DNA of 46,981 bases from Azospirillum sp. (GTDB taxonomy: Bacteria > Pseudomonadota > Alphaproteobacteria > CACIAM-22H2), in contig JADCGK010000043.1 in the NCBI GenBank assembly GCA_020249045.1, positions 1 to 46,981 of the forward strand. Direction: 5' to 3'. This document shows, piece by piece, positions 13,771-27,426 of this stretch (position 1 is the first letter of the stretch; each line of letters opens with the position of its first letter). The position numbers were made by a program, and so were the translations under genes. The notes beneath the pieces were generated by a model, which worked only from the letters and a program-made list of their open reading frames with translations, had not been told where the DNA came from and did no database searches.

Positions 13771-14775
13771 ATGACCCTCGACCGCCGCACCTTCCTCGCC
13801 GCCGGCGCCGCCGCGTCCTTGGCGTCCGCGCCCGCCCTGGCCCAGGCGCGCGAACCCTTGGCGGTCATGACGCCGTTCGGCTTCAACACCGATTTCATCG
13901 AAATGATGAACGCGGTCGCGGGCGGACATCTGGCCCGGCAGGGGTTCGATGCGCGCCTGCTCGGCGCCAACGGCACGGCGCCGGCCACCCAACAGCTGGT
14001 CGCGGGCCAGGTCCAGTTCATCCGTTCGGCCGCCATCGACATGATCCGCGCCGTGCAGTCCTCCGGCGCGCCGTTGGTCGCGGTCGCCACGTCGCATCAG
14101 GGATCGACCTTCCACGTCGTGTCGCTGCGCGACAAACCGGTGCGCGAGGCAAAGGATTTGGCCGGCAAGACCGTGGGAATCGTGTCGGTCGGCGGCACCA
14201 CCGACATCTTCCTCGATCTGATGCTGCAAAGCGCCGGCTTGAAGCGCGACGACGTGCGGCGCGAGGTGACCGGCGCCTCGCCCGGGGCGCTGCAGCTCGT
14301 CAAAGCCGGTCGGGTCGATTGCTTCATGACCTCGATCTCCGCGATCGTGGCGTTGCGCCGCGCGAACGAGCCCATCGAGATCTGGTCGACCGACCGCTAC
14401 GCGCCGATGCCCAGCCAATGCTACGTCACCACGCGCGACACGATCGAACGCCGCCCGCAGACGGTCGTGCGTTTCCTGCGCGCGATGAAGGCGTCGATGG
14501 ACGAAATGCTCGCCGGCAACAGCCGCGCGGTGTTCGAGCGCGCGGGCCGCGAGTACGAAATCCCGGGGATCCGCGATCTCGATTTCGTCGTCGAGGTGGC
14601 GCAAACCTCCCAGCGCGAATTGTGGCTCTCGCGGGGCCGCGAGAATCTGCTGCGCAACGTGCCCGAATTGTGGGAGTCGGGGTTCCGCGCGCTCAAGGCG
14701 GCGGGGCTGGCCGACCCGCCCGATCCGTCGGCGTTGTGGACCAACCGCTTCGTCGAGGAAGCGTTGCGTGGCTAG
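13771..14775 (+). CDS. ABC substrate-binding protein 2 (NMT1/SsuA-like, Tat-exported)
   Basis: 334 residues, a paralogue of the protein at 11391. The twin-arginine motif DRRTFLAAG and a hydrophobic core ending ALAQA give Tat export. Conserved blocks are VMTPFGFNTDFIEMMN, TQQLVAGQVQFIRS, VGIVSVGGTTD, SPGALQLVKAGRVDCF and YAPMPSQ. The two copies differ mainly at positions that would line the ligand cleft and the C-terminus, so they may bind related but distinct ligands for one permease. A GGAG site precedes the start. Its 3' end overlaps the GntR gene by 8 bases. Confidence 0.85.
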   Translation: MTLDRRTFLAAGAAASLASAPALAQAREPLAVMTPFGFNTDFIEMMNAVAGGHLARQGFDARLLGANGTAPATQQLVAGQVQFIRSAAIDMIRAVQSSGAPLVAVATSHQGSTFHVVSLRDKPVREAKDLAGKTVGIVSVGGTTDIFLDLMLQSAGLKRDDVRREVTGASPGALQLVKAGRVDCFMTSISAIVALRRANEPIEIWSTDRYAPMPSQCYVTTRDTIERRPQTVVRFLRAMKASMDEMLAGNSRAVFERAGREYEIPGIRDLDFVVEVAQTSQRELWLSRGRENLLRNVPELWESGFRALKAAGLADPPDPSALWTNRFVEEALRG

Positions 14776-15523
14776 ACGCACGCCCGGGGTGGCCTCGCTT
14801 TACCGGCAGGTCTACGGACACCTGCGCGCGGTGGTGACCGAAGGGCGGGCCGATCCGGCCGATCCGCTGCCCTCCGAGCCCGCGCTCGCCGAACGCTACA
14901 AGGTCAGCCGCGTGACGGTGCGCCGCACGCTGGAGATGCTCGAAGCCGAGGGGCTCGTGCGCCGCGTGCGCGGCGTTGGCACGTTCCCGGTCCCGCGCGA
15001 ACCGGCGAACGACCGTGGAAACATCGGCGGCGCGCTCGATTCGCTGTTGTCCTACGAGCGCACGACGACGGTCGAGAATCTCGAATGGCGGTTGGCCGCG
15101 CCGTCGGCCGACGCGGCCGCGGGCCTGGGTCCGGACAAATGTCTGCGGATCGTGCGCGTCCGGCTTTATCGCGGCACGCCGATTTCGCTGACCACGCTGC
15201 ACGTGCCCAAGCAACACGCCAAGCGGCTCGATCGGGCGCGTGCGGGCGACGAACCCATCGTCGCGATCCTCGAACGCGAGGGTATCGCCGCGGCGCGCGC
15301 GGAGCAGACGCTGACGGCCGTGGCGGCCGACGCGCTGGCGGCCGCGCATTTGCGCGTGGCGGCCGGCGCGCCGCTGGTCGCGATGAAGCGGCTGATGCTT
15401 ACGGCCGCGCGCGCCCCGGTTTTGCACCAGACGAGCCTTTACGCCCCCGAGCGCTTCGAGTACCGGATGTCGCTGGCGCGCGGTTCGCTCGACTCGGCCG
15501 CGCGCTGGACCCCGATCGCCTAG
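14768..15523 (+). CDS. GntR-family regulator with UTRA (HutC-type) domain
   Basis: 251 residues from a GTG overlapping the binding-protein gene by 8 bases. The N-terminal winged helix contains [20 protein letters not shown] (about residues 36-55) followed by [16 protein letters not shown], and residues from about 90 form the UTRA ligand domain ([13 protein letters not shown] near the C-terminus). HutC-type regulators are usually repressors released by a pathway metabolite. As the last gene of the island it is the natural candidate to bind operators A and B. Its 3' end is overlapped on the other strand by the LysR gene. Confidence 0.88.
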
Positions 15524-16412
15524 CATCGGCGGCGGCCGTTTCGGCCGCGAGGTCCGCCACGCGCGCCGCGCGCCGTTCGTCCGGCGCCGCCGGCCAGCAC
15601 GCGACGAATTCGAGTTCGGGCAGATCCGCGTCGCTCGCCACGCGCATCAAACGCCCCGACCGCAACTCCGCGCCGACGATGGCCGCGGGCATCAACGCGA
15701 CCGCGATCCCGTCGAGTGCGAGCTTGATCGCCGGCGACAAGGCGGCCGAGGCGTGCAGTCGCGATGGTCCCACCCCGCGCTGGGCGAACAATTCCTCCAG
15801 CGCGATATGCGGTTTGGTTCCGCGCGCGAAGGTGACGATCGGATGCTCGGCGAGCTTGGCGAGCGGGGCGCGCGCGGGCAGGCCCAGGCGCGGACTCGCG
15901 AGGAAGGCGAGTTCGAACGTACCCAGCGCCTTGTTGCGCAAGCTGGGCGCGGAAAGCGGCCCCAGCAGGAAGGCAAGATCGATCTGGTGGGCCAGCAGGC
16001 GTTCGCGCAAGCGCGGGGAGATGTCGACCTCGATCTCCAGCGCCAAACGCGGATGCTCGCGCGCCAGCCGTTCGATCAGCCGCGGCAGCCAAGTGTGGAC
16101 GATGGTTTCCGCAACGCCCAGCCGCAGCGTGCCTTCGAGGGCCCCGTCGCGCGCCAAAGCCGCACGCATTTCCCCGTGCAGATCGAGAAGCCGCCGCGCG
16201 TAGCCCAACAGCGCGCGGCCCCGTTCGGTGGGCGTTGCCCCGCGCGCCTGCCGGTCGAGAAGCTTGCCGCCGCATTGCGCCTCCAGCCCCGCGATGCGCT
16301 GGGAGATGGCCGGTTGCGTGGCGTTCAGCTTCGCCGCCGCCGCGCGGAAGCCGCCGAGCGTCGCGACCCACACGAAGGTTTCGAGCGCCTTGAGATCGAT
16401 GCTCGCGGTCAT
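15399..16412 (-). CDS. LysR-family transcriptional regulator with C-terminal extension
   Basis: 337 residues, about 40 more than usual. The N-terminal helix-turn-helix is [20 protein letters not shown] (about 22-41), followed by the effector domain ([21 protein letters not shown] onward). The normal domain ends near [13 protein letters not shown]; the remaining residues (Arg/Ser/Ala/Gly-rich) are translated from the strand opposite the GntR gene, giving a 125-base convergent overlap. LysR proteins commonly control the divergent neighbour, here the DUF1445 gene and probably the TRAP operon behind it. A 15-base palindrome lies between the two starts. Confidence 0.85.
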
Positions 16413-16438
16413 GCGATAGAAATTCCTTATCGAAGCCG

Positions 16439-16453
16439 ATCCGAATTTCGGAT
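16439..16453. promoter_or_regulatory. Palindrome in the LysR/DUF1445 divergent gap
   Basis: ATCCGAA (16439-16445) and TTCGGAT (16447-16453) form a perfect inverted repeat around one T, inside the 60-base gap between the LysR start (16412) and the DUF1445 start (16473). A second, imperfect dyad ATCG-N4-CGAT at 16429-16440 lies beside it. The position is right for a LysR binding site, though this is not the textbook T-N11-A box. Confidence 0.5.
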
Positions 16454-16472
16454 TTGTGTTTATCGGCCCAGC

Positions 16473-17285
16473 ATGCTCGCATCGCAGGGCATGGACAAGT
16501 CCGCACCGTACCGCGATCCCGTCGAATTGCGCCGCGCCTGCCGCGAGGGGCGCTTCGCGGGACCCACTTCAGGCCACGCGCACGGTTACGTGCAGGTCAA
16601 TCTTGCGATCCTGCCCGCCGCCTATGCGCCGGATTTTTTGCTGTTCTGCCAGCGCAACCCCAAGCCGTGTCCGGTCATCGCCGTGTCCGAACCCGGGGCG
16701 CGGGATTGCGCGGCACTCGGCGCCGATCTCGATCTCGCGCGCGACGCGGCCGGCTACCGGCTGTTCCGCGACGGCGAACTCGTGGAAACGGCCGACGACG
16801 CGGCCGCGTGGTGGCGCGACGACTTGGTCGCCTTCGCGATCGGCTGTTCGCATTCCTTCGAGGAGGCCTTGGAGGCCGAGGGCCTGACCCCGCGTCACGT
16901 GCGCGCGGGCACGACCGTGCCGATGTTCCGCACTTCGATCGAGTGCGCGCCCGCGGGCATCTTCCGCGGCCCCATGGTCGTGTCGATGCGGCCCTACAAG
17001 CCGGCCGACGCGATCCGGGCGGTTCAGATCACCGCGCGCTATCCGGCCGTGCACGGGGCGCCGGTGCATTTGGCCGATCCCGCGGCGATCGGCATCGCCG
17101 ATCTGGCCAAGCCCGATTACGGCCAGCCGGTGGCGGTCGAAGCGGGCGAAATTCCGGTGTTCTGGGCCTGCGGGGTGACGCCGCAAGCCGCGATCGCCCG
17201 TGCCAAGCCGCCGTTCGCGATCACGCACGCACCCGGGCGGATGTTGGCCACGGATTTGCACAACGCGCGCCTGGCGACGGGTTAG
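16473..17285 (+). CDS. DUF1445 (YcsI-like) putative hydro-lyase
   Basis: 270 residues, the usual family length. [19 protein letters not shown] near residue 30 and the later [20 protein letters not shown] and [12 protein letters not shown] blocks are diagnostic of DUF1445. Some members are D-glutamate cyclases; others are annotated as putative hydro-lyases. It is cytosolic. ATG 16473 was taken; ATG 16491 (MDKSAP) is possible, and neither has a strong ribosome-binding site. Divergent from LysR and 25 bases upstream of a TRAP transporter, it probably acts on the compound that transporter brings in. Confidence 0.85.
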
Positions 17286-17310
17286 CGTCGGAGAAGGGGG
17301 AGCGGGGGGA

Positions 17311-17922
17311 ATGGAAAGCCGATCGTCTTTGTTGCCGCCCGAGCCTTTGGCCCAGCGCATTTCGCGCCTGTTCGCCTGGGCGGCGGGGGCGTGCATCCTG
17401 TTCGGGTGCGGGCTGCTCGTCTCCCTCGACGTGATCACCCGCGCCATCTTCCGCCGCGGCGTCATCGAAAGCTTCGAGATTTCCGGATACGCCTTCGCGG
17501 CGGCGGTCGGCCTGGGCATGGCGTTCGCCGTCGCGTCCAAATCCCATATCCGGGTCGATATCGCGCTCGGACTTCTGCCCCGCAAGCTCCGCGCGCCGTT
17601 CGATCTGATCGCCTCGGCGGCGCTGGCGGCGGTCGCGCTGGCGTTGGCGTGGTTCTGCTGGGGTGTCCTCGACCAGTCGATCGCCATGAACGCGAAGTCG
17701 GTTTCGACGATGCAAACCCCGATGGCGTTGCCGCAGAGCGTTTGGTTCGCCGGGCTGTTCTGGTTCGCGGCGATGTCGGTGATCGTGCCGGTGCAGGCTT
17801 TGCTGCGGTTGCTTGCGGGCGACCGGGCCGGGTTCGAGGCGCTGGTCGGCAGCCTGCGGGTGGACGAGGAGATCGAGCAGGCGGGCGTGGATTCGGACCT
17901 CGCCGGGGGCAAGCGGCCATGA
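17311..17922 (+). CDS. dctQ: TRAP transporter small permease (DctQ)
   Basis: 203 residues with four hydrophobic segments (about 22-44, 60-78, 98-118, 138-158) and the family pattern DVITRAIFRRGVIESFEISGY. It is the small membrane subunit that links the binding protein to DctM in sodium-dependent TRAP uptake. The GAGAAGGGGG/GGGGGGA stretch upstream supplies the ribosome-binding site for ATG 17311. Its stop overlaps the dctM start as ATGA. Confidence 0.9.
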   Translation: MESRSSLLPPEPLAQRISRLFAWAAGACILFGCGLLVSLDVITRAIFRRGVIESFEISGYAFAAAVGLGMAFAVASKSHIRVDIALGLLPRKLRAPFDLIASAALAAVALALAWFCWGVLDQSIAMNAKSVSTMQTPMALPQSVWFAGLFWFAAMSVIVPVQALLRLLAGDRAGFEALVGSLRVDEEIEQAGVDSDLAGGKRP

Positions 17923-19220
17923 TCGCCGTCGCCTTCGCGCTGTTGCTGATCTTCATCTGCGTCGGCTTGCCGGTCGCCGCCGCCCTCGGGCTGATGGGCT
18001 ACGTCCTCCAGGCCAAATACGCCTTCTTCCCCATGACCGGTGCGTTGGGCGAACTCGCGTGGAATTCGTCGAGCGACTTCATCCTCATCGCGTTGCCGAT
18101 GTTCGTGATGATGGGCGAATTGATGCACCGCTCGGGCATGAGCGAGAAGCTGTTCCAGGCGCTGACGCCGTGGTTCGCGCGCGTGCCGGGCCGTCTGATC
18201 CACACCAACATCGCCGCCTCCGCCGTTTTCGCGGCGACGTCCGGCTCGTCGGTCGCGACCGCCGCGACGATCGGCACGGTCGCGATCCCGAACATGGACA
18301 AAGGCGGCTACAACCGACCGCTGTTCCTGGGCTCCATCGCCGCAGGCGGTACGCTCGGGATCCTGATCCCGCCGTCGATCAACATGATTATCTACGCCGT
18401 GCTGACCGACACGTCGGTGGGCGATCTCTACGCGGCCGGGTTCATTCCGGGTTTCGTGCTGGCGGGATTGTTTTCGCTGATGGTGCTCGGCATCTGCCTG
18501 TGGCGACCGGCTTGGGGCGGTCCGGCGGTCGCCGCCGATGGGCTATGGCGCGAGCGTTTGGCGGGTCTCAAGCATCTTTTGCCGCCGCTGGGCCTGTTCT
18601 TCGTCGTCGTCGGTTCGATCTACGCCGGGTTGGCGACGGCGACGGAAGCCTCGGCGCTCGGGTTGATGGCCACGCTGGGATTGGTGTGGGCCAATGGGCA
18701 GTTGACCTTGCGCGTCGTGCTGCACGCCTTCGAAGGCACCGTGCGCGCGACCTGCATGGTGATGCTGATCGTCATCGCGGCCTTCTTCCTCAATTTCGTG
18801 ATGGTGTCGATCGGGCTCATCAAGGCGATCACCGACTCCGTGCTCGCCTTGGGTTGGCCGCCGCTCGCCATGCTGCTGGCGATCGTCGTCTTCTATCTCA
18901 TCCTCGGCTGTTTCATGGAGACGCTGTCGATGATGATCGCGACGACGCCGGTCGTCGTGCCGGTGCTGGTCGCCCTCGGCTACGATCCGGTGTGGTGGGG
19001 CATCGTTTTCGTCATTCTGATGGAGGCGGCGCTGATCACCCCGCCCGTGGGGCTCAATCTTTACGTCGTTCAGGCGGTGCGCGGACGCGGCGCGTTCGGA
19101 GAATTGTGCGCGGGCGCCTTGCCGTTCGTCGCGGCGATGATCGTCATGATCGGCATTCTGATCGCGTTTCCGGATCTGGCGCTTTGGCTGCCCCGGCAGT
19201 TGAAGGCCGTCGCCGGCTGA
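17919..19220 (+). CDS. dctM: TRAP transporter large permease (DctM)
   Basis: 433 residues, strongly hydrophobic throughout with about 12 membrane segments. Family blocks include FILIALPMFVMMGELMHRSG, ATSGSSVATAATIGTVAIP, GGTLGILIPPSINMIIYAVL and EAALITPPVGLNLYV. It forms the transport channel with DctQ and uses an ion gradient. Translationally coupled to dctQ by a 4-base overlap; the binding protein gene follows after 35 bases. Substrate is set by DctP and is not known. Confidence 0.92.
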   Translation: MIAVAFALLLIFICVGLPVAAALGLMGYVLQAKYAFFPMTGALGELAWNSSSDFILIALPMFVMMGELMHRSGMSEKLFQALTPWFARVPGRLIHTNIAASAVFAATSGSSVATAATIGTVAIPNMDKGGYNRPLFLGSIAAGGTLGILIPPSINMIIYAVLTDTSVGDLYAAGFIPGFVLAGLFSLMVLGICLWRPAWGGPAVAADGLWRERLAGLKHLLPPLGLFFVVVGSIYAGLATATEASALGLMATLGLVWANGQLTLRVVLHAFEGTVRATCMVMLIVIAAFFLNFVMVSIGLIKAITDSVLALGWPPLAMLLAIVVFYLILGCFMETLSMMIATTPVVVPVLVALGYDPVWWGIVFVILMEAALITPPVGLNLYVVQAVRGRGAFGELCAGALPFVAAMIVMIGILIAFPDLALWLPRQLKAVAG

Positions 19221-19255
19221 ATCCGTTCCAACGACAACCAGGGAGTCCTTCGATC

Positions 19256-20311
19256 ATGCGCAAAACCCTTCTCGCCGCGGCGGTGCTCGCCGCGATGGCC
19301 CATGCCGGCGCGTCGTCGCCGACCTCGGCCCAGCCGCTGCCGCCGACCACGTTCAACGTCGTCGGCAGCATCGGGAATCTGTCGATGTACACGGCGCGCG
19401 AAGTGCCGTTCTGGAATGAAACGCTGCCGGCCGCCTCGGGCGGGGCAATCCGCGCACAAGTGAAGCCGTTCACCGAACTCGGTTTCCGGGGGCCGGAGAT
19501 TTTCCGCCTCGTATCCAACGGCACGCTGCAATTCGCCACCACGGTGCTGAACTACAACTCCGGCGAAGTGCCGATGAACGAAGCCGCCGATCTCGTCGGC
19601 CTCGTCGGGTCGGTCGAGGAGTTGCAGCGCGTCGTCAACGTGTTCCGCCCGCAATTCTCGGCGTTTCTCGAGCAACGCTACGGCCTGAAGCTGCTCGGCT
19701 TCGGGTCCTATCAGGCCCAGGTCATCTATTGCCGCGACGCCTTCACGCAGATTTCCGATCTGCGCGGACGCAAAGTGCGCGCTTCGGGCGCTTCGCAGCA
19801 GGCCTTCGTCCAGCATATCGGCGGCTCGCCGATCAACATGGCGTTCGCCGAAGTCCAGCCCGCGCTGGCCAACGGCGTCGTCGATTGCGCGATCACGGGC
19901 GCTTTGTCGGGGTATCGCTCGCGTTGGCACGAGGCGGCGCGCTTCATCTCGCCGATGCCGATCAATTTCGGCCTTGCGGCCCAGCTCGCCAATTTGCGCT
20001 GGTGGAACTCGCTCGATCCGCGCGTGCGCGCGCTGATGGAGGTCGAACTGCGCAAGCTCGAGGAATCGATCTTCGATCAGGCGAAGACCGAAACCCAGAC
20101 GGGTCTGAACTGCAACACCGGTACGGGCCCGTGCCCGGAAGGCGCGCCCGCCTCGATGCGCTTGGTCGCGGTCACGCCGGCCGACGAAGCCTTGCGCAAG
20201 GACGCGCTGCAGAAGGCGATTCTGCCCAGCTTCGCCCAGCGTTGCGGGGCCGAGTGCGTCGCGACCTGGAACCAGACCATCGGTCAGGCGCTGTCGATCC
20301 GCATCCAGTAA
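19256..20311 (+). CDS. dctP: TRAP substrate-binding protein (DctP family)
   Basis: 351 residues with a Sec signal peptide (MRKTLLAAAVLAAMAHAGA, cleavage likely near SAQP at about 27). The family hallmark is visible: ISDLRGRKVRASGASQQAFV (about 160-180), where the Arg salt-bridges a carboxylate ligand, and FAEVQPALANGVVDCAITG. It also has four cysteines in the C-terminal half, probably two disulfides (CNTGTGPC and CGAEC). It binds an organic anion in the periplasm for DctQM. A strong hairpin follows the stop, so this ends the transcription unit before sox. Confidence 0.9.
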   Translation: MRKTLLAAAVLAAMAHAGASSPTSAQPLPPTTFNVVGSIGNLSMYTAREVPFWNETLPAASGGAIRAQVKPFTELGFRGPEIFRLVSNGTLQFATTVLNYNSGEVPMNEAADLVGLVGSVEELQRVVNVFRPQFSAFLEQRYGLKLLGFGSYQAQVIYCRDAFTQISDLRGRKVRASGASQQAFVQHIGGSPINMAFAEVQPALANGVVDCAITGALSGYRSRWHEAARFISPMPINFGLAAQLANLRWWNSLDPRVRALMEVELRKLEESIFDQAKTETQTGLNCNTGTGPCPEGAPASMRLVAVTPADEALRKDALQKAILPSFAQRCGAECVATWNQTIGQALSIRIQ

Positions 20312-20330: not shown

Positions 20331-20361
20331 AGGGGCGGCGGCGTGCGAAGCCGCCGCCCTT
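20331..20361 (+). terminator. Hairpin terminator after dctP
   Basis: A perfect 10-base stem GGGCGGCGGC (20333-20342) and GCCGCCGCCC (20350-20359) closes a 7-base loop, with G-U and A-T pairs extending it. The run of T after it is weak (TTCGCATTT), so termination may be partial. It separates the TRAP operon from the sox operon. Confidence 0.65.
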
Positions 20362-20424
20362 CGCATTTGCGAGATGGAATCTTCGGTGGGCCTCAAAAAA
20401 ATCTAAAGACCCCGTTCGAATTTC

Positions 20425-20452
20425 TTGAACTCGTGCATTAGAACATGCTAAT
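20425..20452 (+). promoter_or_regulatory. Proposed sox promoter
   Basis: -35 TTGAAC (20425-20430), 16-base spacer, -10 GCTAAT (20447-20452). Transcription would start near 20459, only about 5 bases before the soxC ATG, which has no clear Shine-Dalgarno sequence. A nearly leaderless sox message is therefore possible; another promoter further upstream (20362-20424) is the alternative. Confidence 0.4.
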
Positions 20453-20456
20453 GCAC
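20433..20456. promoter_or_regulatory. Palindrome at the sox promoter
   Basis: GTGCATTAG (20433-20441) and CTAATGCAC (20448-20456) are perfect 9-base inverted repeats around AACATG, ending 8 bases before the soxC start. The size and position fit a dimeric repressor site (ArsR-, MarR- or GntR-type). No SoxR gene lies in the window. Confidence 0.65.
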
Positions 20457-20464
20457 AAATCGGG

Positions 20465-21817
20465 ATGGAAACGAACGACGACTTGACGGCACGCGGCGCT
20501 TTGCGCCCCGCGCCCGAGAATTTTCTCACGCCTTCACAAATCGCCGAGGTGTCCAAAGGACGCCGCGATTTCCTGCGCGCGGCATTCGCGGCCGCGGGCG
20601 CTGTTGCGGCGGCACCCGCCGCCCTGGCCCAAGGTGCGGGCGATCCGGATATCCTCGAGCCCTTGCCGTGGGCCACGTCGCTTGGCAAGCCGGTGGCCGC
20701 CCTGCCTTACGGCCAGCCCTCGCGCTACGAACGCGGTTTGCAGCGCCGCCAATCGCCGGGCCTGACGCAGACCGATGCGGCCAGCGTTTCCTTCACGCCG
20801 TTGCAGGGCACCTTCGGCATCGTGACGCCGTCGGGGCTGCATTTCGAACGCCATCACCAAGGTTGGTACGACATCGATCCGCGGCGGCATCGGTTCATGA
20901 TCAACGGCGGCGCGCCGGGCATGATCCGCACGCCGAAGGTTTTCACGCTCGACGACATCATGCGCCTGCCGTCGGTTTCGCGGTTCCATTTCATCGAGTG
21001 CGGCGCCAACACCGGCATGGAGTGGGGCAACGCCGCCGTCCCGACGGTCCAGTACACGCATGGCATGCTGGCATGCTCGGAATTCACCGGCGTGCCGCTG
21101 CGCGTTCTGCTCGAGGAATGCGGCGCCGACTTCGCGAAGGGCAAGTTCGTGCTGGCCGAGGGGGCCGATGGCTCGTCCATGACGCGCACGATCCCGATCG
21201 ATTCGGTGCTGTCGGGCGAGGTTCTGGTCGCCTACGGCCAGAACGGCGAAATGCTCCGCCCCGAGAACGGCTATCCACTGCGTTTGGTCGTGCCGGGCGT
21301 GCAGGGCGTGTCGTGGGTCAAATGGCTGCGGCGCTGCGAACTCGGCGACAAACCCTACGGAACCAAGGACGAAACGATCCACTACGTGGATCTGCTGCCC
21401 GACGGCACGCATCGGCAATACACGTCGATCCAGGAAGTGAAATCGGTCATCACCACACCCTCGGGCGGTCAGAAGCTGCTCGCACGCGGCTTCTACACGA
21501 TCTCGGGCCTCGCCTGGTCGGGCCGCGGGCGGATCCGCCGCGTCGACGTCTCCACGGACGGCGGCCGCAACTGGGTCCAGGCCCAACTGCAAGGACCGGT
21601 GATGGCCAAATGCCTCACACGATTCAGCGCGCCTTGGGTTTGGCGCGGCGAGACGGCGCTGTTGCAGGCCCGCGCAACGGATGAAACGGGCCATGTGCAG
21701 CCGACCTATGGCCGGATGCGCGAAGTGCGCGGCACGCGCTCGATCTACCACAACAACTCGATCCAGACGTGGCGCGTGGCGGCGAGCGGCGAGGTGGACA
21801 ATGTCCAAGTTCTTTAG
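20465..21817 (+). CDS. soxC: Sulfane dehydrogenase subunit SoxC (molybdenum)
   Basis: 450 residues. A twin-arginine signal (KGRRDFLRAAF, about 31-41) is followed by an Ala-rich core ending AALAQG, giving Tat export with the molybdenum cofactor. The sulfite-oxidase fold carries the Mo-ligand Cys179 in FHFIECGANTGMEW, then a C-terminal dimerisation domain (RRVDVSTDGGRNWVQA). With SoxD it oxidises the sulfane sulfur bound to SoxY in the periplasm, releasing six electrons. Start 20465 gives a short cytosolic lead of about 30 residues before the Tat motif; no ribosome-binding site is obvious. soxD starts 17 bases inside its 3' end. Confidence 0.95.
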   Translation: METNDDLTARGALRPAPENFLTPSQIAEVSKGRRDFLRAAFAAAGAVAAAPAALAQGAGDPDILEPLPWATSLGKPVAALPYGQPSRYERGLQRRQSPGLTQTDAASVSFTPLQGTFGIVTPSGLHFERHHQGWYDIDPRRHRFMINGGAPGMIRTPKVFTLDDIMRLPSVSRFHFIECGANTGMEWGNAAVPTVQYTHGMLACSEFTGVPLRVLLEECGADFAKGKFVLAEGADGSSMTRTIPIDSVLSGEVLVAYGQNGEMLRPENGYPLRLVVPGVQGVSWVKWLRRCELGDKPYGTKDETIHYVDLLPDGTHRQYTSIQEVKSVITTPSGGQKLLARGFYTISGLAWSGRGRIRRVDVSTDGGRNWVQAQLQGPVMAKCLTRFSAPWVWRGETALLQARATDETGHVQPTYGRMREVRGTRSIYHNNSIQTWRVAASGEVDNVQVL

Positions 21818-22829
21818 CGCCCTCCTCGCGCTGCTGATCGCCGGCGGCGCCTACGCCCAGGAGCGCTTCCCCGGGATCGGCCGGCCCGCCACGCGCGCCG
21901 AGGTCCAAGCGTGGGACATCGACGTGCGCCCCGATTTCCAAGGCTTGCCGCGCGGCAAGGGCACGGTCGCGCAAGGCGAGGAGATTTGGGAGGCCAAATG
22001 CGCCTCCTGCCACGGCACGTTCGGCGAGGCGAACCACACATTCTCCCCGATCGTCGGCGGAACGACCGCGCGCGACATGGAGACCGGCCGCGTGGCCAAT
22101 CTGCGCCGTCAGGACTATCCGCAGCGCACCACCTTCATGAAGGCGCCGTCCGTCGCGACGCTTTACGACTACATTCGCCGCGCGATGCCGTGGACCAATC
22201 CGAAGTCGCTGTCCGACGATGAGGTCTACGCCGTTCTGGCCTATATGCTGAATCTTGCGGACATCGTCCCGGCGGAATTCGAGTTGAACGAGCGCACGAT
22301 CCGCGACGTGCAAAACCGCATGCCCAACCGCAACGGCATGACGACCGACCATGCGATGTGGCCGGGGCGCGGCTTCGGCACCGAACGCAACAAGCCGGAC
22401 ACCCGCGGACCGGCCTGCATGACCGATTGCCGGCTGGAGGCGCGCATCGCCTCGAGCCTGCCCGACCACGCGCGCAACGCGCACGGCAACCTTCTGCTTC
22501 AGAACCGCGTTATCGGCCCGGTGCGCGGCGTGCCGACCGCCCCCGGCGATTTCGACTTCGACGACGCGGAGACCGGCCCGATGCTGCTCGCGCGCGAATC
22601 GGGCTGCCTTGCCTGCCACGGCGTCGCGCAGAAAATCGTGGGTCCCGGCTTCGCGGAAGTCGCGCTAAGATACCGCAATCAGGATGTCGCCGAAGCCCTC
22701 GCCGGGCGCGTGCGGCAGGGCGCGCAAGGCGTGTGGGGGAATGTGCCCATGCCCCCGCAGCCGGATCTGAAGGACGACGAAATTCGCGCGCTGGTCGGCT
22801 GGATTCTGGCCGGCGCGCCGGAGAAGTGA
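21801..22829 (+). CDS. soxD: Diheme cytochrome c SoxD
   Basis: 342 residues with a Sec signal peptide (MSKFFSALLALLIAGGAYAQ). Two haem-binding motifs are visible, CASCH at 67-71 and CLACH at 269-273, in separate N- and C-terminal cytochrome domains; a CMTDC pair at 206-210 could form a disulfide. It is the electron-accepting partner of SoxC in the Sox(CD)2 complex. The start overlaps the soxC end by 17 bases, so the pair is translationally coupled. Confidence 0.93.
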   Translation: MSKFFSALLALLIAGGAYAQERFPGIGRPATRAEVQAWDIDVRPDFQGLPRGKGTVAQGEEIWEAKCASCHGTFGEANHTFSPIVGGTTARDMETGRVANLRRQDYPQRTTFMKAPSVATLYDYIRRAMPWTNPKSLSDDEVYAVLAYMLNLADIVPAEFELNERTIRDVQNRMPNRNGMTTDHAMWPGRGFGTERNKPDTRGPACMTDCRLEARIASSLPDHARNAHGNLLLQNRVIGPVRGVPTAPGDFDFDDAETGPMLLARESGCLACHGVAQKIVGPGFAEVALRYRNQDVAEALAGRVRQGAQGVWGNVPMPPQPDLKDDEIRALVGWILAGAPEK

Positions 22830-22874: not shown

Positions 22875-23339
22875 ATGAAGACCGTCGATAACACCCGCCG
22901 CCGCGTCGTGCAGACCGGCGGTGCGCTTGCGGCCTTCGCCGCCGCCGGCCTGCTGCCCACGGACGCGCTCGCCGCGTGGAACCAGGCCGCGTTCGAGGGC
23001 AAGAACATCCCCGACACGCTCAAGGCCCTAAATCTCGACAACCCGACGCCGTCGGGCGATCTGCAGATCGTCGCCTCGGACATCGCCGAAAACGGCGCCG
23101 TGGTGCCGATCCAGATCGTCAGCCGCATCCCCAACACGACGCGGATCGCGCTGATGGTCGAGAAGAACCCGAACATGCTCGCCGCGGTCTTCGACGTGCC
23201 CGAAGGCATGCTGCCGGACGTCGCCACGCGCATCCGGATGCAGCAGACGTCGAATATCGTCGCGGTCGCGGTCGCGGGCGGCAAGGTGCATACCGTCACG
23301 CGCGAAATCAAAGTCACGCTCGGCGGCTGCGGCGGCTGA
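22875..23339 (+). CDS. soxY: Thiosulfate carrier subunit SoxY
   Basis: 154 residues. A twin-arginine-type leader (TRRRVVQTGGALAAFAAAGLL) precedes an immunoglobulin-like domain that ends in GGCGG, with Cys152 as the swinging arm to which sulfur intermediates are covalently attached. It works as a heterodimer with SoxZ in the periplasm and is visited by SoxAX, SoxB and Sox(CD)2. A very strong purine-rich ribosome-binding site (GGAGGAGGAAGG) suggests high expression. soxZ follows after 21 bases. Confidence 0.95.
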   Translation: MKTVDNTRRRVVQTGGALAAFAAAGLLPTDALAAWNQAAFEGKNIPDTLKALNLDNPTPSGDLQIVASDIAENGAVVPIQIVSRIPNTTRIALMVEKNPNMLAAVFDVPEGMLPDVATRIRMQQTSNIVAVAVAGGKVHTVTREIKVTLGGCGG

Positions 23340-23360: not shown

Positions 23361-23669
23361 ATGACCAGCCCGATGCGAATCCGCGCCAACGTGCGCGACG
23401 GCGTCGTCGACGTCCGCGTCCTGATGGCCCACGAAATGGAAACCGGCCAGCGCGTCGAAAACGGCCGCCCGGTTCCCGCTTGGTTCATCAACGAGGTCGT
23501 CGCGACCCACAACGGCAAAACCGTGATGACCGCCCAATGGGGCCCGGCCGTCTCGAAGAATCCCTACCTGCAGTTCCGCTTCCGCGGCGGTGCAGCGGGC
23601 GAGAAGATCGCCATCAAGTGGACCGACAATCGCGGCGAATCGCGCACCGACGAAGCGACGATCGCCTGA
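23361..23669 (+). CDS. soxZ: Sulfur carrier partner SoxZ
   Basis: 102 residues, no signal peptide, as usual for SoxZ, which is co-exported with SoxY by hitch-hiking on its Tat signal. Characteristic blocks are VLMAHEMETGQR, FINEVVATHNGK and NPYLQFRFRGG. It scaffolds SoxY in the carrier heterodimer. A GGGAGA site lies upstream. A long GC hairpin follows, separating the YZ carrier from soxAXB. Confidence 0.95.
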   Translation: MTSPMRIRANVRDGVVDVRVLMAHEMETGQRVENGRPVPAWFINEVVATHNGKTVMTAQWGPAVSKNPYLQFRFRGGAAGEKIAIKWTDNRGESRTDEATIA

Positions 23670-23738: not shown

Positions 23739-24551
23739 ATGAAACGCCGTTGGTATGGCGCGGCCGCCGCCGTTTTGGCGCTGGCTTTCGGGGGCGGGTT
23801 GACCGCGCAGACGCAAGAGGAAACCCAACGCGGCATCGAGGCCTATCGCCAGGCGCTGCAGCAGGGCAACCCGGCCGAATTGTTCGAGGCGCAGGGCGAG
23901 GAACTGTGGAAGAAGCCCATGGGTCCGAGAAACGGCACGCTCGAGCAATGCGATCTCGGCGTGGGGCCCGGCAAGGTCGCGGGCGCCTACGCCCGACTGC
24001 CGCGCTATTTCGCCGACACCGACAAGGTCCAGGATCTCGAAAGCCGTCTGCTCACCTGCATGGAGCGCTATTGGGGCATCGACGTCCAACCGGTGATCGA
24101 CGCGGCCTACACGGCCCCCGCCAAACGCGAAATCATCGCGTTGACGACCTACGTTTCGGGCGAATCGAAGGATGTGGTCGTCGATGTGCGTCCCACCCAT
24201 CCCAAGGAACGCGCCGCCTTCGAACTCGGCAAGCGCATGTTCTTCTTCCAAGGCGGGTCGCACGATTTCTCCTGCGCCACCTGCCATAGCGAGGACGGCA
24301 AGCGCATCCGCTTGCAGGATCTTCCCAACATCACCGAGCGCAAGGGTTCGGCGCTGGGTTGGGGCAGCTGGCCGGCCTATCGGGTGAGTGCGGGCCAAAT
24401 GTGGACGATGCAGTGGCGCATCCAGGATTGCTTCCGCCAGATGCGCTTCCCCGAACCGATCTACACCTCCGAAGCGACGATCGCGTTGTCGGTCTACATG
24501 GCCGCGACGGCGAGCGGCGAGACGATGCGTACCCCCGGGATCAAGCGCTGA
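23739..24551 (+). CDS. soxA: Cytochrome c SoxA (single-haem type)
   Basis: 270 residues with a Sec signal peptide (core AAAAVLALAFGGG). Only one CXXCH is present, CATCH at 179-183, with Cys231 in RIQDCFRQMR as the expected axial cysteine (persulfide) ligand. The position of the N-terminal haem of diheme SoxA is instead occupied by Cys71 and Cys107, which form a disulfide in monohaem members. With SoxX it joins thiosulfate to the SoxY cysteine. soxX starts 11 bases after its stop. Confidence 0.94.
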   Translation: MKRRWYGAAAAVLALAFGGGLTAQTQEETQRGIEAYRQALQQGNPAELFEAQGEELWKKPMGPRNGTLEQCDLGVGPGKVAGAYARLPRYFADTDKVQDLESRLLTCMERYWGIDVQPVIDAAYTAPAKREIIALTTYVSGESKDVVVDVRPTHPKERAAFELGKRMFFFQGGSHDFSCATCHSEDGKRIRLQDLPNITERKGSALGWGSWPAYRVSAGQMWTMQWRIQDCFRQMRFPEPIYTSEATIALSVYMAATASGETMRTPGIKR

Positions 24552-24562
24552 GGAGAAGCCCC

Positions 24563-25201
24563 ATGAAGAAACCCATCCTCGCCGCCGTCGCCGCGACCGC
24601 CTTCCTCGCGTTCGCCGCACCCGCCACCGCGCAAACCGCATGGGGCCCCGGAGCCGACGACGCCGCGTTCCAAGCCATGCTCCGCGCGAGTTTCCGCGAA
24701 CGGCCGGGTGCGCCGCTCACCCGACTTGAACAGGACCCCGTGCAGGCTTTCTGTTCGGACCCCGCAGCATCCCAGTCGCGCGCGGCGGCGGCCACTGCGG
24801 AACGTCTGGAACGCGAGAATTTCGCCGCTGTGAAATTCCCCGCCGACGGCCAGTTTCTCGGCGATTGGCGCCGGGGCGAAGCGATCGCGCAATCGGGCCG
24901 AGGCCTGACCTGGACCGACGGAGCGAACCAAGCGAACGGCGGCAATTGCTACAATTGCCATCAGATCTCCGAAGCCGAGATTTCCTTCGGCACGATCGGG
25001 CCGAGTCTGCTGGGCTACGGCAAGCTGCGCGGCAATACGCCCGAAGTGCAGCGCACGACGTGGGCGAAGATCTGGAACTCCAAATCCAGCAACGCGTGCT
25101 CGAACATGCCGCGCGCGGGTCACATGGGCATTCTGACCGAGGCGCAGATCAAGGACATCATGGCGTTGCTGCTCGATCCGCAGTCGCCGGTGAACAAGTA
25201 A
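24563..25201 (+). CDS. soxX: Cytochrome c SoxX
   Basis: 212 residues with a Sec signal (MKKPILAAVAATAFLAFAAPATAQ). Haem motif CYNCH is at 129-133 and the distal methionine is probably Met182 in NMPRAGH. The N-terminal extension of about 90 residues before the cytochrome domain makes it longer than the smallest SoxX proteins. It takes electrons from SoxA during thiosulfate conjugation. An AGGAG site lies 7 bases upstream of ATG 24563. Confidence 0.94.
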   Translation: MKKPILAAVAATAFLAFAAPATAQTAWGPGADDAAFQAMLRASFRERPGAPLTRLEQDPVQAFCSDPAASQSRAAAATAERLERENFAAVKFPADGQFLGDWRRGEAIAQSGRGLTWTDGANQANGGNCYNCHQISEAEISFGTIGPSLLGYGKLRGNTPEVQRTTWAKIWNSKSSNACSNMPRAGHMGILTEAQIKDIMALLLDPQSPVNK

Positions 25202-25206
25202 CCGCC

Positions 25207-26928
25207 ATGGACCGCCGGGAATTCCTGGGCGTATTGGGGGCGGCCGCGACCGTCGGATTTTCGCTGCGCGCCGAAGATGCGCGGGCGCAAAGCGAAGCCG
25301 ACCGGCTTTACGACGCGCCGCGCTTCGGCACCGTGTCGCTTCTGCACTTCACCGACTGCCACGCCCAGCTTTTGCCGGTGCATTTCCGCGAACCGAGCGT
25401 CAATCTCGGCATCGGCTCGATGGCGGGCCAGCCGCCGCATCTGGTCGGTGAACGGCTGTTGGGCCATTTCGGCGTGCCGGCGGGTTCGCGTCTGGCGCAC
25501 GCCTTCACGCATCTCGATTTCGACCGGCTTGCGCGCCAGTACGGCAAGGTCGGCGGCTTCGCGCATCTGGCGACGTTGATCAAGCGCGTGCGCGCCACGC
25601 GGCCCGGCGCGCTGCTGCTCGACGGCGGGGATACGTGGCAAGGCTCCGGTACGGCGCTGTGGACCAAGGGCCAGGATATGGTCGACGCGTGCAAGCTGCT
25701 CGGCGTCGACGTCATGACGCTGCATTGGGAATGCACCTACGGCGCCGAACGCGTGACCGAAATCGCCGAGAAGGATTTCGCGGGCAAAATCGACGTGGTC
25801 GCGCAGAACATCAAGACGGCCGATTTCGGCGACGACGTGTTCAAGCCCTATGTCGTGAAGGACGTCAACGGCACGAAAGTCGCGGTGATCGGGCAAGCCT
25901 TCCCCTACACCCCGATCGCCAATCCGCGCTACTTCGTCGAGGATTGGACCTTCGGTATCCGCGAGGAGGAAATGCAGAAGGCCGTGGACGCGGCCCGCGC
26001 CGAAGGGGCCCGCGCGGTCGTCGTGCTGTCGCACAACGGCATGGATGTGGATCTCAAGCTCGCCGGCCGGGTGCGCGGGATCGACGCGATCCTGGGCGGC
26101 CACACCCATGACGGTGTGCCCCGACCGACGATCGTCGCCAACGCCGGCGGGCGCACGCTCGTGACCAACGCGGGCTCGAACGGCAAGTTCCTGGGCGTTC
26201 TCGATTTCGAGATGGGCAGCGGCGGCGTCGCCGATTTCCGCTATCGCCTGTTGCCGGTCTTCGCCGATCTGTTGCCGGCCGACCGCGAGATGGCCGCGGC
26301 GATCGAGCGCATCCGCGCGCCGCATTCGGCGAAGCTCGGCGAAAGGCTGGCGATCAGCGAAGGGCTTCTTTACCGACGCGGCAATTTCAACGGTTCTTTC
26401 GATCAGCTGATCTGCGATGCGTTGATCGCCGAGCGCGATGCGGAGATCGCGTTCTCGCCGGGTTTCCGATGGGGCACGTCGATCCTGCCGGGCGAAGCGA
26501 TCACGATGGAGCACGTCCTCGACCAAACGGCGATCACCTATCCCTACGTCACGCTCGCCGAAATGACCGGTGCGCAGATCAAGGAAATCCTCGAAGACGT
26601 CGCCGACAACCTGTTCAACCCCGATCCCTACCAGCAGCAAGGCGGCGATATGGTGCGCGTGGGCGGGCTCGCCTACGCATGCGATCCGACGGCGCGGATG
26701 GGCGCGCGGATCCAGGACATGCGCCTTGCCGGCCGGCCGATCGAAGCGGGCAAGCGCTACAAGGTCGCGGGCTGGGCGCCGGTGGCGGCCGAGGCGCGTG
26801 ATGCCGGCGGCGAACCCATCTGGGATCTCGTTTCGCGGCACCTGCGCGCGAAGCGCACGATTGCACCGCCCGCCCTCAACCTGCCGCGCTTGATCGGGAT
26901 GGACGGCAATCCGGGCCTCGCCCTTTAG
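25207..26928 (+). CDS. soxB: Thiosulfohydrolase SoxB
   Basis: 573 residues, the family's normal length. The Tat signal DRREFLGVLGAAATVGFSL is followed by the metallophosphoesterase domain with metal ligands in LLHFTDCHAQ, GGDTWQGSG, SHNGMD and GGHTHDG, and then the 5'-nucleotidase-type C-terminal domain with GNFNGSFDQ. It hydrolyses the terminal sulfone of SoxY-bound thiosulfonate to release sulfate, using two manganese ions in the periplasm. The start is 5 bases after soxX. An extra Cys occurs in HWECTYG, where Phe is more common. Confidence 0.95.
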   Translation: MDRREFLGVLGAAATVGFSLRAEDARAQSEADRLYDAPRFGTVSLLHFTDCHAQLLPVHFREPSVNLGIGSMAGQPPHLVGERLLGHFGVPAGSRLAHAFTHLDFDRLARQYGKVGGFAHLATLIKRVRATRPGALLLDGGDTWQGSGTALWTKGQDMVDACKLLGVDVMTLHWECTYGAERVTEIAEKDFAGKIDVVAQNIKTADFGDDVFKPYVVKDVNGTKVAVIGQAFPYTPIANPRYFVEDWTFGIREEEMQKAVDAARAEGARAVVVLSHNGMDVDLKLAGRVRGIDAILGGHTHDGVPRPTIVANAGGRTLVTNAGSNGKFLGVLDFEMGSGGVADFRYRLLPVFADLLPADREMAAAIERIRAPHSAKLGERLAISEGLLYRRGNFNGSFDQLICDALIAERDAEIAFSPGFRWGTSILPGEAITMEHVLDQTAITYPYVTLAEMTGAQIKEILEDVADNLFNPDPYQQQGGDMVRVGGLAYACDPTARMGARIQDMRLAGRPIEAGKRYKVAGWAPVAAEARDAGGEPIWDLVSRHLRAKRTIAPPALNLPRLIGMDGNPGLAL

Positions 26929-26937
26929 GAGATCGCC

Positions 26938-27426
26938 ATGCGCAGACTCGCCTTCGCTTTCGTCCTGGCCCTGTTGGCGTCGCCCGTCGCCGCCCAAGAA
27001 GGCACCTTCACGGTCAAACATCTGACGCCCGAGACGGCGCTCAAAGCCGCGCAAGCGGCGCTCGCCGCCTGTCGCGCGGAAGGGGCGCAAACGGCCATCG
27101 CCATCGTCGACCGTTCGGGCGTCACGCAAGTGCTGCTGCGCGACCGGTTCGCCGGGCCGCATACGGTGCACGTCGCCGTCGACAAGGCGTGGACGTCGGT
27201 TTCGTTCCGGCAGAACACGCTGGATCTGGTCCAGGCGACGCAGACGCCCGACATGTCGGGCGCGCGCCAATTCCCGCGTTTCGTCGCGGTCGGCGGGGGC
27301 GTGTTGATCGAAGGCGGGGGATCGATCTTCGGGGCGATCGGCGTGTCGGGCGCGCCGGGCGGCGCGATGGACGACAAATGCGCCAAAGCGGGCCTTGCGG
27401 CCATCGCCGACGAACTGAATTTCTGA
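26938..27426 (+). CDS. Exported HbpS/GlcG-family protein
   Basis: 162 residues with a Sec signal (RRLAFAFVLALLASPVAAQ). The mature part is the GlcG/HbpS (DUF336) fold: AIAIVDRSGV, RDRFAGPHTVHVAVDKAWTS and GGGVLIEGGGSIFGAIGVSGA. Relatives bind haem or act as corrinoid/haem-related accessory proteins. It starts 9 bases after soxB with a GGAGAT site, so it is the last gene of the sox operon. A role in guarding or delivering haem for the three Sox cytochromes is an attractive inference, not shown. Confidence 0.85.
   Translation: MRRLAFAFVLALLASPVAAQEGTFTVKHLTPETALKAAQAALAACRAEGAQTAIAIVDRSGVTQVLLRDRFAGPHTVHVAVDKAWTSVSFRQNTLDLVQATQTPDMSGARQFPRFVAVGGGVLIEGGGSIFGAIGVSGAPGGAMDDKCAKAGLAAIADELNF

Follow-up and report, generated by a model that had tools for sequence, protein, structure and literature searches.

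An ATTAG-N6-CTAAT palindrome over the soxC promoter of an Azospirillum sp. genome, a probable operator for a sulfur-responsive ArsR-family repressor

How might a sox operon be controlled when no soxR gene accompanies it? The question is raised by a 46,981-nucleotide stretch of Azospirillum sp. DNA, referred to here as the window, in which a sox gene cluster (Table 1) is preceded by the palindrome GTGCATTAG-AACATG-CTAATGCAC. An earlier note had described this repeat with its 6-base centre and the 8 bases that separate it from the soxC ATG, had placed it over the best promoter-like site of soxC, and had stated that no soxR is linked, and all three points were confirmed. The best sigma70-like pair between 20301 and 20470 was TTGAAC-16-GCTAAT (20425-20452), a weak site that matches 8 of 12 consensus positions; a stricter promoter scan reported none at soxC, and alignment with TATTAT in a relative (G017) gives an alternative -10 at 20449-20454. 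Excerpts of PMC10451225 and PMC12423496 describe ArsR-family repression of sox by SoxR in Hyphomicrobium, Paracoccus and Pseudaminobacter, released by sulfane sulfur in Hyphomicrobium, with the bona fide soxR linked to the sox genes (PMC10451225). In the window, by contrast, no linked soxR was found, and the genome has five PF01022 and six PF12840 matches, none of them on the sox contig; for this reason the regulator is not classed here as a SoxR. Directly upstream of sox is a TRAP-transporter-like gene cluster with LysR- and GntR-type regulator genes (13771-20311), the transporter assignment coming from reading the translations. Just past the upstream gene that ends at 20311 lies a G+C-rich inverted repeat with 10-base arms (20333-20359), at which a scan found no terminator-like T run.

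Table 1. Coordinates of features at the soxC promoter and in the sox cluster (positions in the window)
Feature	Positions	Strand	Remark
Degenerate counterpart of the G005 dyad AAGAAATCTAA-N9-TTAGATTTCTT	20396-20426	.	Only left half well kept in window
-35-like TTGAAC (4/6)	20425-20430	+	Consensus match only
Palindrome GTGCATTAG-N6-CTAATGCAC, proposed operator	20433-20456	.	Perfect 9-base inverted repeat
Core dyad ATTAG-N6-CTAAT (= ATTA-N8-TAAT)	20437-20452	.	Kept at G005 soxC; also at other sulfur and arsR promoters
-10-like GCTAAT (4/6)	20447-20452	+	Consensus match only
soxC ATG	20465-20467	+	Within stretch aligned with relatives' Shine-Dalgarno
soxC (sulfane dehydrogenase molybdoprotein)	20465-21817	+	
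soxD (cytochrome c)	21801-22829	+	
soxY	22875-23339	+	
soxZ	23361-23669	+	
soxA	23739-24551	+	
soxX-like cytochrome c	24563-25201	+	
soxB (5'-nucleotidase family)	25207-26928	+	
HbpS-like gene	26938-27426	+	Cluster end

The genome search that the earlier note had proposed as a check found the palindrome to be unique, as no other match with up to 3 mismatches occurred in the window or in the own genome (3.87 Mb in 255 contigs). When the proximal 80 bases (20385-20464) underwent 5000 dinucleotide shuffles, 11 of these gave a perfect inverted repeat with arms of at least 9 bases and a gap of at most 10, and 5000 shuffles of the whole intergenic region gave 40, frequencies that make the repeat unusual and that are not decisive alone. 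The window holds ten such perfect repeats, and the nine besides the palindrome are G+C-rich. A chance repeat, with selection acting on the -10 only, would agree with the 11 shuffles that reach 9-base arms and with the overlap between CTAAT and the -10; the comparisons with other promoters described below bear on it through the left half-site, which lies outside the promoter hexamers.

A close soxC was found in seven of the 23 family genomes, the own genome included. The nearest relative (G005, 79% identity) carries ATTAG-ATGCTG-CTAAT at the same place in its soxC promoter, and in G017 and G009 TTAG-N6-CTA is kept and CTAA-N-TTAG is added, so that the left half-site stands at a fixed distance in all three. 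None of these dyad patterns was found in the 250 bases before the soxC match in G008, G016 and G021. Conservation in relatives with the same operon, to which the earlier note had tied its reading, is mixed: the exact core is kept in the nearest relative and a shorter form in two more, while three of the seven soxC promoters show no such motif. An ArsR-type SoxR gene lies directly upstream of soxC in G017; in the other five relatives none of the ArsR matches obtained lies on a sox contig, though some of these contigs are short. G005 has a second perfect dyad, AAGAAATCTAA-N9-TTAGATTTCTT, upstream of the first at -114 to -84 from its soxC match, which may be a second operator or an UP element. 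The family comparison also bears on the LysR- and GntR-type regulators encoded about 4-6 kb upstream of the palindrome (15399-16412 on the minus strand and 14768-15523 on the plus strand), from which sox is separated by the TRAP-transporter-like gene group, as read from translations. Binding of the palindrome by one of them is hardly credible, since neither gene is within the listed sox cluster of G005 or G017 and the even-length dyad is unlike the T-N11-A pattern of LysR sites.

The spacing of the dyad was then examined at more distant soxC genes, in a set of 112 loci comprising 80 named loci, 29 class members and 3 others. The class members were obtained from 385 genomes, of which 32 matched; the own genome and two without a locus were removed, and SoxC of the remaining 29 is 49-75% identical. 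Among the 80 named loci,.TTAG-N6-CTAA. occurred four times in three loci, in every case at most 101 bases before the soxC match: once on the G005 contig, twice in the betaproteobacterium UKL13-2 and once in Pollutimonas. In UKL13-2 the two copies of ATTAG-N6-CTAAT abut each other (L093 3900-3931), with their centres 16 bp apart, in the region that separates soxC from a divergent ArsR gene. Across the 112 loci, TTAG and CTAA at a gap of 6 gave five sites upstream of soxC in four loci, among them the window and G005, and no site in 825 kb elsewhere, and the other gaps from 0 to 14 gave 0-1 upstream and 0-1 elsewhere. The looser pattern ATTN-gap-NAAT peaked at a gap of 8, with 17 upstream sites in 16 loci against 0-8 for other gaps; away from the region upstream of soxC, the 23 sites at this gap fall within the 8-25 of the other gaps. 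Related Limnohabitans-like Burkholderiales make up seven of the 16 loci, and without those seven and the window a gap of 8 still gave nine sites in eight loci, against 0-5 for other gaps. The complementary 5-base arms ATTNG/CNAAT at a gap of 6 gave ten upstream sites in nine of the 80 loci, none elsewhere, and 0-3 upstream at other gaps; without the seven related loci three sites remain, which does not exceed the number for the highest other gap, and this count is not significant by itself. Upstream of soxC in the 29 class members, 5-base arms of the form AT..G at a gap of 6 were not found, probably in part because soxC there often closely follows another gene, and the 4-base arms of ATTC-N8-GAAT occurred in 3 of the 29. 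The half-sites of related sites read ATTA or ATTC.

The own genome has only three copies of TTAG-N6-CTAA. One is the soxC site and another lies at C188:30379; the third, at C35:506, is close to an ABC-transporter ATPase gene and has no sulfur link. The same letters backwards are about tenfold more frequent in this genome (31 against 3). The C188 site lies in a divergent promoter between a gene for a persulfide-dioxygenase-like protein and a YgaP-type rhodanese gene. The former encodes an MBL-fold protein that matches ETHE1 (4chl, E 2.1e-22), its best matches carrying MBL names only, and the rhodanese is assigned to the YgaP type by PF00581 together with PF11127. Genes of this kind are controlled by SqrR/BigR/HlyU-type repressors, so the C188 site counts in favor of reading the palindrome as an operator. 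Rhodanese promoters from 12 of 27 rhodanese loci of the family (L220-L231) were compared, aligned on CTAATAT; the right half-site in this comparison is fixed by the search expression CTTGA...CTAATAT. The loci left out all lack that expression, namely L232-L236, L238-L246 (including L239, with ATT-N10-AAT in an AT-rich stretch) and L237, which scores as well and lies inside the G006 arsR operon. The divergent gene was detected at 10 of the 12 loci. At a gap of 6, the five bases to the left agreed with ATTAG at three or more positions in all 12 loci and at four or more in eight; at other gaps from 0 to 13, the corresponding numbers of loci were 0-7 and 0-2. Measured from CTTGA, the end of CTAATAT lies at a distance of 25, 27 or 29, yet the gap is 6 throughout, as would be expected of an operator and not of promoter hexamers alone. 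With the left half-site at a fixed distance in all 12 of these promoters, as in G005, G017 and G009, a chance repeat becomes highly improbable.

We also examined where else the core stands in the family. The exact sequence ATTAG-N6-CTAAT occurred at nine places in the 23 genomes and the reversed control at seven, so the number of motifs is no evidence, while their locations are. Two of the nine are soxC promoters. Two more lie in G006, between a multicopper-oxidase gene and a divergent operon (C13; L158 4783-5870) in which a YgaP-like rhodanese gene follows a BigR-type arsR, with a persulfide-dioxygenase-like match further on. One, in G009, precedes by about 23 bp a YeeE/YedE-type gene whose matches to the TsuA/YeeE model are weak; a search of the own genome for a YeeE/SoxT homologue as a further target found none at E 0.001. 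Two places are directly upstream of arsR-SRPBCC genes, in G007 (L162 4848-4863) and G004 (L163 3805-3820), and the remaining two have no evident link. As the same core stands before a different ArsR type, the half-site ATTAG may be common to several ArsR groups. The palindrome could accordingly be suspected of serving another ArsR protein with no sulfur-sensing role, such as the arsR-SRPBCC type, of which the own genome has a gene pair on C150. We consider this improbable, because elsewhere in the own genome and the family the site accompanies sox, persulfide-dioxygenase/rhodanese, BigR-type and YeeE-type genes, and because no ATTAG-N6-CTAAT was seen by eye upstream of the own C150 gene.

A two-cysteine regulator of the SqrR/BigR/YgaV/SoxR type is encoded in the own genome at C87:4639-4959, unlinked to sox. 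A search with this protein identified itself as the only close protein of its type in the own genome, the next match having an E value of 8.5e-7. Its best relatives of solved structure are HlyU (1.8e-27), SqrR (1.2e-22; we take this to be the protein of entry 6o8l and others, which are listed as ArsR family), YgaV (1.2e-20) and BigR (7.8e-19); its score against the BigR equivalog NF040642 is 84.2 bits, below the cut-off of 155. Cysteines C30 and C96 are invariant among the six family proteins compared. The C87 protein is 44% identical to the G006 protein that has ATTAG-N6-CTAAT in its own promoter and shares with it the stretch SQSALSQHLA, which reads SPAALSQHLA in the linked SoxR of G017. Regulators of this type also occur in genomes without a close soxC, and G008 has one that is 69% identical, yet its soxC promoter lacks the motif. 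The upstream region of the C87 gene itself shows no dyad, and in its surroundings Pfam recognized only LysE and AsnC/Lrp families among 7 of the 23 frames listed, with no sulfur gene seen. The earlier suggestion of an operator for an ArsR-type SoxR is well supported as to the operator, by comparative evidence, and points to the right neighborhood for the regulator; as to its kind, the best candidate is of the unlinked SqrR/BigR/HlyU type and not a bona fide sox-linked SoxR.

Comparison with described systems also points to this group of regulators. The site deduced for RcSqrR of Rhodobacter capsulatus, ATTC-N8-GAAT, which excerpts of PMC9774250 report also at E. coli ygaVP, has the same ATT-N10-AAT spacing as ATTA-N8-TAAT of the window and differs in the fourth half-site base, C in RcSqrR and A here. 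In our judgement this base is not defining, since G006 has ATTAG before its own BigR-type gene. According to the same excerpts, YgaV was footprinted over its own promoter; the window dyad likewise lies over the predicted core promoter of sulfur-metabolism genes at soxC, and the same core is found at the C188 promoter. For BigR, H2S and polysulfides release repression, as excerpted from PMC5823870. BigR/Blh of Xylella and Agrobacterium and YgaV/YgaP of E. coli share with the system proposed here a homologous regulator and sulfur-dioxygenase and YgaP-type rhodanese targets (excerpts of PMC5823870 and PMC9774250); here the proposed regulon includes sox too and the regulator gene is located away from the genes it would control. 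HlyU of Vibrio cholerae, the best solved relative of the C87 protein, is described in excerpts of PMC4330345 as an activator of hlyA that binds the AT-rich imperfect palindrome TAATTCAGACTAAATTA, a site whose dyad spacing differs from that of the window. In the excerpts of two SoxR studies (PMC10451225, PMC12423496) conspicuous repeats guided the choice of probes and a consensus is not given, and no description of the present operator was found in the portions of the open PMC literature on SoxR/SqrR operators that were covered. The operator most likely belongs to an already known type of sulfur-sensing repressor site, for which ATTAG-N6-CTAAT, within the wider class ATTN-N8-NAAT, would provide a concrete sequence for sulfur-responsive ArsR repressors at sox.

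We infer that the palindrome is most likely the operator of a sulfane-sulfur- or sulfide-responsive ArsR repressor of the SqrR/BigR/YgaV/HlyU type that would render sox inducible, and that the repressor is likely encoded by the unlinked C87 gene. A repressor dimer would occupy the half-sites of ATTAG-N6-CTAAT, cover the spacer and the -10, and exclude RNA polymerase. In the presence of thiosulfate, sulfide or polysulfide, a sulfur bridge between the two conserved cysteines would release the repressor, and transcription of soxCDYZAXB would then begin shortly after the palindrome and give a very short leader. The C87 repressor probably also acts on the C188 persulfide-dioxygenase-like/rhodanese promoter, in which case sulfur oxidation and sulfide detoxification would be induced together. 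A sox operon that lacks a linked soxR is thereby given a candidate regulator, encoded elsewhere in the genome, and co-regulation of the operon with persulfide detoxification is predicted. The palindrome could instead act as an RNA hairpin in the leader of a message from a promoter further upstream and control soxC translation, as a 9-pair stem would form beside the start codon. This is very unlikely, and an RNA element was rejected as the main reading, because the fold has an ordinary stability (z -1.14, matched by 26 of 200 shuffles), no Rfam family was found at the palindrome, Watson-Crick pairing survives in G005 only at the core ATTAG/CTAAT, and other promoters show the same fixed N6 spacing. 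Two weak Rfam matches below the gathering scores lie between 20200 and 20700, away from the palindrome.

The operator reading extends to a more tentative proposal, to which we give somewhat less than even weight: that this lineage has dispensed with a dedicated sox-linked SoxR, that one unlinked HlyU/BigR-type sulfane-sulfur sensor acts through ATTAG-N6-CTAAT on both sox, for lithotrophic thiosulfate oxidation, and pdo-ygaP, for persulfide detoxification, and that the soxC start has moved into a former Shine-Dalgarno sequence to give a near-leaderless message. The earlier note had seen no Shine-Dalgarno before soxC, and this was borne out, the longest match before the ATG being 3 nt; in the 20 bases before the starts of soxD, Y, Z, A, X, B and the HbpS-like gene, matches of 4-6 nt were found in all seven cases, that of soxB 13 nt from its start. 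Where G005 and G017 carry GGAAGG ahead of an ATG, the aligned bases of the window are GGATGG. Its ATG at 20465 thus lies within the former Shine-Dalgarno, and ACG stands at the position of the relatives' start codon. With the -10 within 20447-20454, transcription is predicted to start near 20458-20463, with a leader of about 4-6 nt. Given this short predicted leader, the location of the ATG and the 3-nt match, a near-leaderless soxC message is plausible, on the strength of one draft genome. A search of the open PMC literature for a leaderless sox operon found no paper. The alternative starts TTG 20483 and GTG 20549 were rejected, as neither has a better Shine-Dalgarno (3 nt) and with either the protein ahead of the conserved APENFL would be shorter than in relatives. 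The start-codon comparison offers a small example of how a Shine-Dalgarno-led gene may turn near-leaderless.
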